NCBI GenBank assembly: GCA_001604185.1
Contig: LVAV01000022.1
Coordinates: 851-64,850 of the forward strand
Length of the DNA: 64,000 nucleotides
Origin: Clostridiales bacterium Firm_16
GTDB lineage: Bacteria > Bacillota > Clostridia > Saccharofermentanales > Saccharofermentanaceae
Direction: 5' to 3'
Below, in pieces: positions 35,660-54,786 of this stretch. A program made the translations under genes and the position numbers. Below the pieces are notes generated by a model that worked only from the letters and a program-made list of their open reading frames with translations, searched no databases and was not told the origin of the DNA. How positions within the stretch are numbered: position 1 is the first letter of the stretch; each line of letters opens with the position of its first letter.

Positions 35660-35713
35660 ATATCCTGGGATCGGATCGGTCCCTCAAGATTTCATGGAAT
35701 CGAGGAAATGATT

Positions 35714-36070
35714 ATGTTGGAAGTGTATTGCTACAGTAGATGTACGACTTGCCAGAAAGCCCTAAAATGGCTGGAAGCAAAGGGAATCGAGCACAAGGTC
35801 ATCGATATCAAGGAAAACCATCCGAATGAGAAGAATCTTCGGAAATACTACAAAATGAGCGGACTTCCGCTTAAGCGTTTCTTCAATACCAGCGGCATCC
35901 AGTATCGTGAACTGGAACTGTCTAAGAGACTTCCGGATATGAGTGAGGATGAACAGTTTGCACTTCTGGCAAGCGACGGCATGCTGGTCAAGCGCCCTCT
36001 TCTGGTCGGTAAAGATTTTGTTCTGACCGGATTCAAAGAAACTGAGTGGAGCGAGAAGCTCTCTGTCTGA
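35714..36070 (+). CDS. ArsC/Spx-family thioredoxin-fold protein
   Basis: A 118-residue protein with a CTTCQ (CxxC) motif at about residues 9-12 (YSRCTTCQKALKWLE) and the ArsC-type segment MLVKRPLLVG. It matches the arsenate reductase-like YffB/Spx group. True arsenate reductases use other cysteines, so the role may be in thiol redox or RNA polymerase binding rather than arsenate. ATG 35708 touches the ribosome site; ATG 35714 is 7 nt after GAGGA and is preferred. Confidence 0.9.
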   Translation: MLEVYCYSRCTTCQKALKWLEAKGIEHKVIDIKENHPNEKNLRKYYKMSGLPLKRFFNTSGIQYRELELSKRLPDMSEDEQFALLASDGMLVKRPLLVGKDFVLTGFKETEWSEKLSV

Positions 36071-36098: not shown

Positions 36099-37289
36099 AT
36101 GAAACTGTTTTTATGTGGCGGCGGATCTGGCGAGCAGACCGCGGCGGTCAATCGTGTATTTAATGCGGTCATCGACCACGATAAACCGCTTCTTTACATT
36201 CCTTTGGCCATGGATGAGAATGAACATTCTTATGACGATTGCTATGAGTGGATCAAGGGCGAACTGGCTGAGGTAGATGTGCCTTCTATCGAGATGGTCC
36301 GTTCTTACGAAGAACTGGCTGCGAAGAACCTTGCTGAATATGGATCGATCTTCATTGGTGGCGGCAATACTTTCGAACTTCTGAAAGGAATCAAGGACAG
36401 TGGTGCTTTTGCCAAGCTGCAAGAGTATATCCGCAACGACGGAGTCGTTATGGGCGGCTCGGCGGGAGCGATTATCTTCGGTAAGGATATTATGACGGCC
36501 ATCGCTATGGATCCGAACGATGTAGAACTGGAAGATACCGCCGGATTCGATGTGCTGGATGGAGAATCTATCTTTGCGCATTACACCAATGAGTGGACCG
36601 AGGAGGCACACCAGCGTTTTACAGAGTTCCTGCAGAAGTATACTTCCGAGAATGAGTCGGTGTACGCCCTGCCTGAAGAAGATACGATCTTTGTTAACGG
36701 AGACCAGATTCAGATCATCGGCGACAGACCGTACTACTTCTTCGAAAGCGGAACGAGAGAAAAGAAGATGGCGGAGATGAGAAACGAACTCAAGGATAAC
36801 GAGTGGCCTTTGGAATACATTGACCACGACCGTTGGATCGCGAGAGGTATCGTTTTCGATGAACAAGGCAACTTCTATTTCGTCCGTGCCGAGCGCGATG
36901 ATCTTTTCGGAAAAGCAACCATGATCGAGACTCCCGGCGGCGGAGTGGAGAAAGGCGAGAACCTGAACATGGCGATCCGCCGTGAACTCAGTGAGGAACT
37001 TGGGGTTGAAGTGGAAGTGATCTGTAAGATCGGTGTGGTCAGTGACTACTACAACGTCATCCACAGACATAACCTGAGCAACTATTTTCTCTGCAAGGTG
37101 AAGTCTTTCGGAGACAAGCATCTGACAGAAGATGAGATCAATGACTTCCATCTTTCTACCTTGAAGATGACATTCGATGAGGCGGTGGCAGAATACGAGA
37201 TGCGCAGGGAGACACCTATCGGAAGACTGGTAGCCAACCGAGAACTGCCGGTACTTATGCGGGCCAAGGCGATCATCGATACTCTTTGA
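36099..37289 (+). CDS. Fusion: peptidase S51-like domain + Nudix hydrolase domain
   Basis: A 396-residue two-domain protein. Residues 1 to about 215 match peptidase family S51 (dipeptidase E/cyanophycinase-like): SIFIGGGNTFELLK, then the nucleophile Ser121 in MGGSAGAI and a plausible His161 in FAHYTNEW. Residues about 240-396 form a Nudix domain with a perfect box from G281 to V303 (GGVEKGE, then RRELSEELGV). Both sites look intact. There is one continuous frame, no internal ribosome site at the join and no frameshift, so this is a real fusion and not two genes. S51 enzymes cleave Asp-X dipeptides or isopeptides; the Nudix part suggests a nucleotide-linked substrate. The combined role is unknown. 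Confidence 0.88.
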   Translation: MKLFLCGGGSGEQTAAVNRVFNAVIDHDKPLLYIPLAMDENEHSYDDCYEWIKGELAEVDVPSIEMVRSYEELAAKNLAEYGSIFIGGGNTFELLKGIKDSGAFAKLQEYIRNDGVVMGGSAGAIIFGKDIMTAIAMDPNDVELEDTAGFDVLDGESIFAHYTNEWTEEAHQRFTEFLQKYTSENESVYALPEEDTIFVNGDQIQIIGDRPYYFFESGTREKKMAEMRNELKDNEWPLEYIDHDRWIARGIVFDEQGNFYFVRAERDDLFGKATMIETPGGGVEKGENLNMAIRRELSEELGVEVEVICKIGVVSDYYNVIHRHNLSNYFLCKVKSFGDKHLTEDEINDFHLSTLKMTFDEAVAEYEMRRETPIGRLVANRELPVLMRAKAIIDTL

Positions 37290-37311: not shown

Positions 37312-38250
37312 ATGTACTTTGATGAACTGAAAAAGGGTATGACAGTAGAGACGGCACCGGCGGTGATCGAGAAAGAGAAGATGCTGGCATTTGCCCGGGA
37401 ATACGATAATATCCCGCTTCATGTGGATGAGGAATACGCAAAGACGACCCATTTCGGGAGAATCATCGCGCCGGGCGTCATGTCCTTTATGGCGGTATGG
37501 GCGAAGTATCTGGATGTGGCTTTCTTTGAAGATGCGCTTCTGGCCGGAAAGTCTTCCAAGATCGAGTGGATGAAACCCGTGTTTGCGGAGGATGTCCTGA
37601 CCGGTAAAGCAACCATCACGAATCTGGTTCAAAGAAGCGAGAAGAATGGTCTGGTGGAGCTGACGATCGAAGTATATAACCAATACGGCGAGCATGTCAT
37701 GACCAATGTGACAGAGGCCGTTGTGAAGTGTAGAAAGAAGATCCTGGAGACCGAAAGGCTTTTCCTTCGTGAGATGACGATGAGCGATCTGGATGCACTC
37801 TATGCGGTGCTCGGCGATCCGGACATCATGCAGCACTATCCCTATTCCTTCGATGAGGAGCGTGTACGTGCGTGGATCGAGCGCAACATGAACCGTTACC
37901 ATGACAATGGTTTCGGACTTTGGGCCGTATGTTTGAAAGAGAGCGGTGAGATGATCGGTGACTGCGGTCTGACACTTCAGAATATCGAAGGCGAGATGCT
38001 GCCGGAGATCGGATACCATATCCGTAAAGACCAGCAACGTAAAGGATATGCCAAAGAGGCGGCAGCCGCGGTGCGTGACTGGGCCTTCGCCAATACGGAG
38101 TATCCCGCACTTTATTCCTACTGCAAGTATACCAATGTCGGATCTTTCAAGACGGCGGAATCCATCGGTATGCATTTCGAGAAAGAGTACCCGGATGAGG
38201 CCAATAAGATCACGCACGTATCGGTGATCCGAAGAGACGAAATGGTATAA
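37312..38250 (+). CDS. Fusion: MaoC-like hydratase domain + GNAT acetyltransferase
   Basis: A 312-residue two-domain protein. Residues 1 to about 138 match the MaoC hot-dog hydratase fold, keeping the catalytic Asp32 and His37 in YDNIPLHVDEEYA and the AxG segment IIAPGVMSFM. Residues about 144-312 are a RimJ/RimL-type GNAT (LETERLFLREMTMSD, then the acetyl-CoA loop RKDQQRKGYAKEA). The domain join is at about residue 140. MaoC domains handle acyl-CoA thioesters and GNAT domains transfer acyl groups from CoA, so a shared acyl-CoA chemistry is plausible but is inference. The gene lies 22 bp after the S51-Nudix fusion. Its stop codon is part of the next promoter. Confidence 0.88.
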   Translation: MYFDELKKGMTVETAPAVIEKEKMLAFAREYDNIPLHVDEEYAKTTHFGRIIAPGVMSFMAVWAKYLDVAFFEDALLAGKSSKIEWMKPVFAEDVLTGKATITNLVQRSEKNGLVELTIEVYNQYGEHVMTNVTEAVVKCRKKILETERLFLREMTMSDLDALYAVLGDPDIMQHYPYSFDEERVRAWIERNMNRYHDNGFGLWAVCLKESGEMIGDCGLTLQNIEGEMLPEIGYHIRKDQQRKGYAKEAAAAVRDWAFANTEYPALYSYCKYTNVGSFKTAESIGMHFEKEYPDEANKITHVSVIRRDEMV

Positions 38251-53232: not shown

Positions 53233-53946
53233 ATGAGTAAACACGTAGTAAAAAATGTCAGCCTTGCAATGATCCTTTGCCTGATGCTCGCGCTCTTTGC
53301 CGGGTGCGCCGGACCCGTGTCCCGAGCCAGACAGAAGGAATGGGTCGAAAAGATGAACGAGACTTTCAAGAAGGACGAATTCACCTATGCGGGACCGCAT
53401 TCTGGAGAGTATGGCCAGGAGCAGTATATTGCTGACGTCAAGTCGAAGAAGTATCCGGAAAACAGAATCATCGTGAAAGAGTTAAACGGAAAGTTGCTGA
53501 CAAATTACAACTCGATCCGTTATCGCGACGAAGCGGTTGACTATGTGAACGATTATTTCAGAGGTAGATTCTCCTGCGACAGCTACAAAGTGAAGTATGC
53601 TCCGGTTGATCAATTCGGACCTGTGATCGATTACTCTTTCGATGAGTACTACGATGAATGCTTCTCTTTTAACTGTGTAAGGATCGCACTGATCTCGAAA
53701 AACGGAAATTTCCCTTCGGATGAGGAGATTGCCGAGGAAATGTTAGCGATAGCAAAAGACCGAGATGAAATCTGTAGTTTATATGTTCATTGCATTAGGG
53801 ATAAGGATGATGACTGGGTCCTGGATAGTGACAAGTACTTCGAACTGTACATGAAAGAGGAGCGAAAAGTAAACTATATTAGAGTCGCCCATGATGAAGG
53901 CAAAAAAACCAAGTTCGAAAGAATCATGGAAAACGTGACCTGGTGA
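53233..53946 (+). CDS. Predicted lipoprotein, paralogue A
   Basis: A 237-residue protein with a lipoprotein signal peptide ending in LFAGC. The mature part has no recognised family. It aligns along its whole length with the next gene at 54070: MNETFKKDEFTY and MNEVFKDDEFTY, LLTNYNSIRY in both, and a helical PSDEEIAEEMLAIAKDRDE against PSEEEMAEKLLSIAKKRDE. The pair is therefore a tandem duplication. AAGGAG precedes the ATG. Confidence 0.82.
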   Translation: MSKHVVKNVSLAMILCLMLALFAGCAGPVSRARQKEWVEKMNETFKKDEFTYAGPHSGEYGQEQYIADVKSKKYPENRIIVKELNGKLLTNYNSIRYRDEAVDYVNDYFRGRFSCDSYKVKYAPVDQFGPVIDYSFDEYYDECFSFNCVRIALISKNGNFPSDEEIAEEMLAIAKDRDEICSLYVHCIRDKDDDWVLDSDKYFELYMKEERKVNYIRVAHDEGKKTKFERIMENVTW

Positions 53947-53997
53947 TCTTGCTCCATGCCAGTGACGATGTCCTTGTGTGTTCCGTTTCGCCGAGAC

Positions 53998-54026
53998 TTG
54001 TAAAATCCTGAATCAAGCGTTATAAA
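53998..54026 (+). promoter_or_regulatory. Promoter of lipoprotein paralogue B
   Basis: TTGTAA and TATAAA are separated by exactly 17 bp, with a leader of about 37 nt. The second copy can therefore be expressed on its own. Confidence 0.65.
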
Positions 54027-54069
54027 GTATGAGGAAGAAAACGATAATCTTTGCGAAGAGGAGACGCAT

Positions 54070-54786
54070 ATGAAAAATCGTATAAGAAGAGTGTGTAGTC
54101 TGGGAGTGACACTGTGTCTGGTGATCACTTTTATTTCCGGATGTGTCGGACCTGTCGGAAGAGCGCAGCAGAGACGGTGGGTCGACAAGATGAATGAGGT
54201 GTTCAAGGATGACGAGTTCACCTACGATGGTCCGGCAAGCGGCGAATTGGGAGAAAAATCCGGATTAACCTATCCAAACTCGAAAAAGTATCCGCATAAA
54301 TCTGTCGGAGTGAAGGAAGTCGATGGTCAACTTCTGACCAATTACAATTCCATACGCTATGAAGAGGCTGCAGAGGAATACATCTACGACTATTTCGAAG
54401 GTAAATTCGACTGCGACCGGCATGAGATCACGTATATGGTACGTGATGCATATGGCCCTTTGGTCGATTATTCTGAGAAGGAATACGTCAAGAACTGTGT
54501 GACGCTGAACCGTGTCAGGGTCGCACTGGTCAAGAAAGACGGAATTTATCCTTCCGAAGAGGAAATGGCCGAGAAACTGCTTTCCATCGCGAAAAAGCGT
54601 GATGAGGTCTGTGATATCACGGTGTATTACATGACGGAGGCATCGGACAGTACAAACTGGGTAAAAGAATCCGATGTATACTACACATTACACATGACCG
54701 AGCCTCGCAAGGTGGAATATATCCGTTCGTATTATTTCCATCATAGCGAAGATAATAACGTCATCGTGGAAAATCTGAGCTGGTAA
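54070..54786 (+). CDS. Predicted lipoprotein, paralogue B
   Basis: A 238-residue protein with a lipoprotein signal peptide ending in FISGC, paralogous to the preceding gene (see there for shared segments). The best conserved region is LLTNYNSIRY and the helix before it. Family and function are unknown. AAGAGGAGACG precedes the ATG. The separate promoter suggests the copies are differently regulated. Confidence 0.82.
   Translation: MKNRIRRVCSLGVTLCLVITFISGCVGPVGRAQQRRWVDKMNEVFKDDEFTYDGPASGELGEKSGLTYPNSKKYPHKSVGVKEVDGQLLTNYNSIRYEEAAEEYIYDYFEGKFDCDRHEITYMVRDAYGPLVDYSEKEYVKNCVTLNRVRVALVKKDGIYPSEEEMAEKLLSIAKKRDEVCDITVYYMTEASDSTNWVKESDVYYTLHMTEPRKVEYIRSYYFHHSEDNNVIVENLSW

Follow-up and report, generated by a model that had tools for sequence, protein, structure and literature searches.

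The S51 peptidases fall into six clades, of which clade V, with a conserved Asp as the third residue of the catalytic triad, is that of MccG; according to the main text of the study that described them (PMC9239234), MccG enzymes cleave processed microcin C, and five out of seven stand-alone homologues tested were able to protect E. coli. The same text reports that PepE, where the third triad residue is Glu, gave no protection, and that MccG with Glu substituted at this position kept its protection against one of two microcins and was less effective against the other. It further reports that some S51 peptidases cleave isoaspartyl-nucleotides, that the product of S51 cleavage of microcin C is a phosphoramide, i.e. 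a compound with no diphosphate, and that the GNAT enzyme MccE2 acetylates the same microcin C payload.

The gene considered here lies within the window, by which we mean the whole stretch of 64 000 nucleotides that was analysed, and its product, P0001, carries an S51 peptidase and a Nudix hydrolase in a single chain (Table 1). Translation gives an uninterrupted frame with an ATG start, 396 codons and a stop, preceded by a plausible candidate ribosome-binding site, gacgaggaaagaatATG. Both Pfam domains score above their cut-offs: 98.1 bits against a curated cut-off of 23.9 for Peptidase_S51 (PF03575, 7e-28) and 44.6 bits against 21.1 for NUDIX (PF00293, 1.8e-11). The preliminary description of this DNA had proposed that the two domains form one protein with an intact Ser121 motif and an intact Nudix box from G281 to V303, and the sequence bears this out: Ser121 is within GGSAG, and the box, G281-X5-E287-X7-R295E296-L-S-E299E300-L-G302-V303, is an exact instance of the pattern GX5EX7REUXEEXGU. 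It had also stated that its author knew of no standard family with this order of domains, and searching P0001 against Pfam and NCBIfam turned up none. In a HMMER alignment with Salmonella PepE, S121, H161 and E193 face S120, H157 and E192 (PepE numbering as in the main text of PMC9239234), so that the Ser-His-Glu triad is common to both. The same genome has two more S51 matches elsewhere, with weaker scores (E ~3e-10 and ~4e-10).

Table 1. Features of the S51-Nudix gene and of the genes on either side of it (positions in the window)
Feature	Position	Strand	Basis
ArsC-family gene, 28 nt upstream of the fusion gene	35708..36070	+	
S51-Nudix fusion gene (P0001), 396 aa	36099..37289	+	Open frame, Pfam, genus survey
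Peptidase_S51 domain, residues 3-207	36105..36719	+	Pfam; triad by PepE alignment
Joint and Nudix leader, residues ~219-247	36753..36839	+	Stand-alone relatives; low pLDDT at 226-243
NUDIX domain, residues 248-351	36840..37151	+	Pfam; exact Nudix box G281-V303
Largely helical C-terminus of the Nudix half, residues 352-396	37152..37286	+	Shared with stand-alone relatives; model
MaoC-like dehydratase and GNAT acetyltransferase fusion, next gene	37312..38250	+	

An AlphaFold2 model of P0001, obtained from 19 sequences, is of moderate confidence (mean pLDDT 73.7, pTM 0.53; pLDDT 56.1-73.7 over the five models). Both halves fold in the predicted structure, as a working two-domain protein should, and pLDDT drops below 50 only at residues 226-243 and 317-324. 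Searched against the PDB with Foldseek, the first half found peptidase E structures (7c9b, 6a4r and 3l4e; E 5e-11 to 4e-10); for the second, the matches were Nudix enzymes, e.g. the Ap6A hydrolase 1vc8 (TM 0.82 by target length). The joint is inside a low-confidence stretch, which is consistent with a flexible tether, and the model leaves the placement of one half relative to the other undefined.

The fusion is found in a group of bacteria of the gut and the rumen. Survey of the genus, 23 genomes in all, revealed a full-length S51-Nudix gene in 14, uninterrupted in 13 and with an in-frame TAA in one (G021). The remainder consisted of two genomes with an S51-GNAT gene, four with a Nudix gene of the same subfamily and no S51, one in which the S51 gene is cut at a contig end (G004) and two (G001 and G019) where neither half was found at E 1e-15. 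Separate adjacent halves with a frameshift at the join, an arrangement that would have spoken against a genuine fusion, were found in none of these 23 genomes, counting the contig-cut one. A pattern scan of 84 980 species genomes with P0001 gave 19 relatives, mostly on contigs that the genus survey had already covered; 12 of the relatives are near full-length (from query residue 6 or earlier through 394 or later); one of the 12, L012, has a stop and is the contig of G021. A ruminant host is named for 8 of the 12 and no host for the other 4. Catalytic residues are kept among the homologues: the triad in all 18 S51 rows compared, and the complete Nudix box in all 42 Nudix-half proteins extracted, a count from which a 43rd place, broken by a TAG (G042), was left out. 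A simple counting method puts dN/dS at about 0.05-0.16 for the S51 half in 19 of 20 pairs (the pair G013-G007 being omitted, as its dS of 0.01 makes the ratio of 0.8 meaningless) and about 0.03-0.12 for the Nudix half in 16 of 18 pairs, the two others, both with G015, being saturated; these values are rough because many dS are near or above 1. The S51 and Nudix halves are thus alike under purifying selection and, in view of the low dN/dS and the kept motifs, both are most likely still functional.

The Nudix subfamily of P0001 is found well beyond this architecture. A survey of the family (115 genomes) gave 36 genes, to which a sample of the class (391 genomes) added 7 from beyond the family. 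Fourteen of these 43 are S51-Nudix genes, all in the genus of the window, 20 stand alone and 9 have other partners: five are Nudix-Nudix, two GNAT-Nudix (with two different GNATs), one Nudix-GNAT and one esterase(SASA)-Nudix, the last at a contig start. Architectures were called from frame length, sequence and, for representatives, Pfam, and frame length was the measure of standing alone; one gene so counted (G092) has an extra N-terminal stretch of ~50 residues. Met224 of P0001 coincides with the first residue of several stand-alone relatives (L037, which begins MTELRNEFQDNEW, L050, L053, L067 and L074), so that the joint seems to consist of the C-terminus of S51 run into what was once the start of a Nudix gene, and Met224 is probably a former start codon, now internal. 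The idea that it is conserved as an internal start for a free Nudix protein was rejected: the Met is absent in 7 of the 14 rows compared (G013, G002, G022, G003, G006, G020 and G015), and it looks like a relic.

The S51 half, too, has changed partner. In G012 and G014 the same S51 half is fused to a GNAT acetyltransferase instead of Nudix, and G002 has S51-Nudix, a TGA and then a separate GNAT gene (partly unread, N) whose product is 96-98% identical to that GNAT over 100 residues. The fused proteins of G012 and G014 comprise S51 and the Nudix leader as far as EYIDHD, then four codons from the old stop-and-gap region, then the GNAT, and a similar short sequence is found at both edges of the swap (ATCGATCAC and ATCGACAC). 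Judging from these sequences, the arrangement of G002 is likely to represent the precursor of S51-GNAT, in which the Nudix body would have been lost and S51 run into the next gene; that the change went in this direction is deduced from the leftover leader.

The two halves do not share one history. Compared with G003, G006, G017, G020 and G022, the window protein is 65-66% identical in S51 and 88-90% in Nudix, whereas with G002 the figures are 85% and 77%. At the DNA level, in windows of 25 codons, identity with G020 is 60-77% before about residue 229 and 79-88% after it. Maximum-likelihood trees that unite the window group with the second (G003-type) group were rejected for S51 (p-AU 7e-5), and those that unite it with G002 were rejected for Nudix (p-AU 0.004), the groups for these tests having been picked with the identity table already known. 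G013 and G007 differ by 6 codons in 1-217 and by 51 in 218-396, which places a recombination edge between codons 202 and 218; patchy identity inside the Nudix half of the window and G002 indicates that exchange was not limited to the joint. Histories in such conflict speak against the halves being tightly co-adapted.

The locus as a whole is made up of genes for small accessory enzymes, most of which lie on the same strand; they include Nudix, PHP, a beta-lactamase-like hydrolase, GNATs, an ArsC-family protein, APH, and also SDRs and others (read from translations). Other fusions are found in it. The next gene, MaoC-GNAT, is fused in three of the five genus genomes that have the MaoC gene and, by frame length, its MaoC part stands alone in two relatives. 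The GNAT family of this gene is present in 18 of the 23 genus genomes, fused to MaoC in three and to APH in one and stand-alone in other genomes, and in G087 a 71% relative is fused to the front of a Nudix half of the P0001 subfamily. The APH case (G007, L078:10321-11625) has the GNAT and an APH phosphotransferase domain in one protein, encoded immediately downstream of S51-Nudix. Fusion is not general in the locus, since in the stretches compared no member is fused in either of two other families, GNAT c1 (12 of 12 at 186-191 aa) and MFS c3 (11 of 11 at 427-436 aa). Of the 15 genus loci that allow a judgement (L087 and L091, where contig ends are too near, were left out), 11 have an MFS gene within a few genes upstream of S51, and the window, L080, L081 and L090 are without it; the only one of the 11 that was tested, from L082, matches Pfam MFS_1 and is weakly Mef-like, below the NCBIfam cut-offs. 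In L092 (17928-19175), a GNAT follows an N-terminal part of ~250 aa with no Pfam match and, by eye, a P-loop-like start, GLQSSGKTT. Upstream of the S51-Nudix gene of G002 (L081:5208-7636) there are adjacent LuxC- and LuxE-like genes (acyl-CoA reductase and acyl-protein synthetase), and at 53233-54786 the window has a tandem pair of similar small lipoprotein-like genes (read from translations). Integron-like cassettes were considered as the source of the shuffling and set aside: a search for repeats from 25 to 50 kb found 17 direct families with 2-3 copies apiece plus 4 inverted pairs; these were scattered and for the most part weak, and nothing common to the genes was seen among them. Promoter-like matches were not in excess (4 against 3.3 in shuffles); terminator-like matches numbered 6 against 1.9.

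The explanation that we favour, and regard as rather probable, is that P0001 is a tethered pair of independently working hydrolases joined by gene fusion within an accessory-enzyme locus. Neighbouring genes of a fast-changing cluster would have run together to give the S51-Nudix protein. Its first half would be a PepE-like serine peptidase hydrolysing Asp-X amides and its second a nucleotide pyrophosphohydrolase of the MutT/ApnA-hydrolase type, both activities and substrates being predicted ones; the two would be house-cleaning or detoxifying enzymes, each active and selected separately. The main benefit of fusion would be co-expression and a 1:1 dosage, presumably with no substrate handed from one half to the other. 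Since its parts are separate or otherwise joined in relatives, the protein looks like a product of local gene shuffling and not like a dedicated two-step enzyme. The preliminary description had suggested a function of the latter kind, either on a substrate containing both an Asp-type peptide or isopeptide bond and a nucleoside diphosphate linkage or in removing a damaged conjugate in two steps. Substrate coupling of this sort did not hold up as first choice, being weakened by Nudix genes that are alone or with other partners, by the GNAT swap and by the conflicting trees of the two halves. The tether may nevertheless matter beyond co-expression, the fused state being the commonest in the genus and none of the genus genomes having unfused halves side by side, and recombination that preserves the fused frame can alternatively be read as selection for the fusion.

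Another possibility, which we think unlikely, is that the fusion is selectively neutral, i.e. a chance join that persists because each half is needed. The same Nudix subfamily is repeatedly fused with unrelated partners, and MaoC-GNAT and GNAT-APH show that joining also happens nearby. The GNAT c1 and MFS c3 families, unfused in the stretches compared, show that fusion is not general and speak against this possibility; so does the persistence of the S51-Nudix frame through large divergence and recombination.

Less probable still is that P0001 detoxifies aspartyl-nucleotide conjugates in a modular way, be they microcin C-like antibiotics or endogenous waste resembling aspartyl-adenylate. Its S51 half would cut the Asp-nucleotide amide as MccG does, and the Nudix or GNAT part would treat the nucleotide or cap the amino group. 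Against this, P0001 shares Glu at the third triad position with the non-protective PepE, where the MccG clade has Asp, and the phosphoramide left by S51 would offer Nudix no diphosphate; on the other side stand cleavage by MccG, protection by five of the seven homologues tested and the action of MccE2 on the same payload (all from the main text of PMC9239234). The partial protection afforded by the Glu mutant in that text also favours the detoxifier, and implies that the third triad residue alone is not decisive. By analogy with the S51 peptidases described there as cleaving isoaspartyl-nucleotides, P0001 may have a role in conjugate removal. An MFS gene near S51 in most informative loci, though not in the window, fits such a role, as does an S51 relative flanked by aminoglycoside resistance genes on a plasmid of Campylobacter (see below); against it, the partners come from whichever accessory genes are near, and the genome's single ThiF-family match, a frame of 258 aa outside the window, gives no hint that microcin C is made. 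This frame has a size that suits a tRNA-modifying relative rather than MccB. The chances are poorer again for a more elaborate version, a mix-and-match resistance enzyme in which the S51 core cuts aspartyl-nucleotide conjugates and an exchangeable Nudix or GNAT module, swapped among rumen bacteria, finishes the job. If the aspartyl-nucleotide reading were true, it would represent a new modular route of resistance against Trojan-horse antibiotics.

An assembly error, a frameshift artefact or a pseudogene, to which the in-frame TAA of G021 might point, is already refuted by the 13 uninterrupted copies, that of the window included, and by dN/dS well under 1, and we give it next to no credence.

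The S51-Nudix protein and its relatives provide a natural record of ongoing gene fusion, with parts that are alone, fused, re-partnered (a likely precursor being visible as well) and, among close relatives, recombined at the domain joint. They also caution against a common inference, namely that a fused pair of enzymes must share a substrate.

Among known systems, PepE-type aspartyl dipeptidases (1fy2, 6a4r and 7c9b) and Lmo0363 (3l4e) have the fold of the S51 half and are its best PDB matches by sequence as well as by structure, with 21-26% identity in structural alignments; P0001 differs from them by its added Nudix tail. Its scores against the Peptidase E equivalog PRK05282 (79.4 bits for a cut-off of 156) and the cyanophycinase model TIGR02069 (27 bits for 126.6) are below threshold. 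The Nudix half has the exact box and the fold of MutT/ApnA-hydrolase-like enzymes (1vc8, 3i7u and 2azw), from which it is set apart by its own N-terminal leader and C-terminal helices; none of the listed NCBIfam models, the MutT 8-oxo-dGTP diphosphatase TIGR00586 included (35.7 bits for 97.9), is matched above its cut-off. MccG belongs to the same S51 family but, as a clade V enzyme, has Asp where P0001 has E193, and the main text of the MccG paper makes no mention of Nudix (PMC9239234). The likeness to MccE2 is drawn at the level of the GNAT class: a GNAT replaces the Nudix half in two genomes, and in G002 it is simply the next gene downstream. Of the 23 plasmid and 2 phage records that matched P0001, none covered 80% of it. 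A conjugative Campylobacter jejuni plasmid carries a shorter S51 relative (L145:8001-8531), 48% identical over 164 residues, which has aph(2'')-Ih on one side and aph(3')-IIIa on the other and lies downstream of tet(O). In a sample of the phylum (398 genomes, at least 148 with an S51 match), no strict Nudix box was found at 14 S51 places, taken among the matches listed as the 11 longest frames and the 3 best scores; at one of them (L136) a simple S51 motif was also unseen, and a 336-aa frame with stops (G547) fell outside the 14. A literature search that covered papers outside subscription showed no S51-Nudix fusion in the titles and abstract openings retrieved. Fusion of neighbouring enzyme genes is an event of a well-known kind; the S51-Nudix architecture and its visible re-partnering seem to be new.
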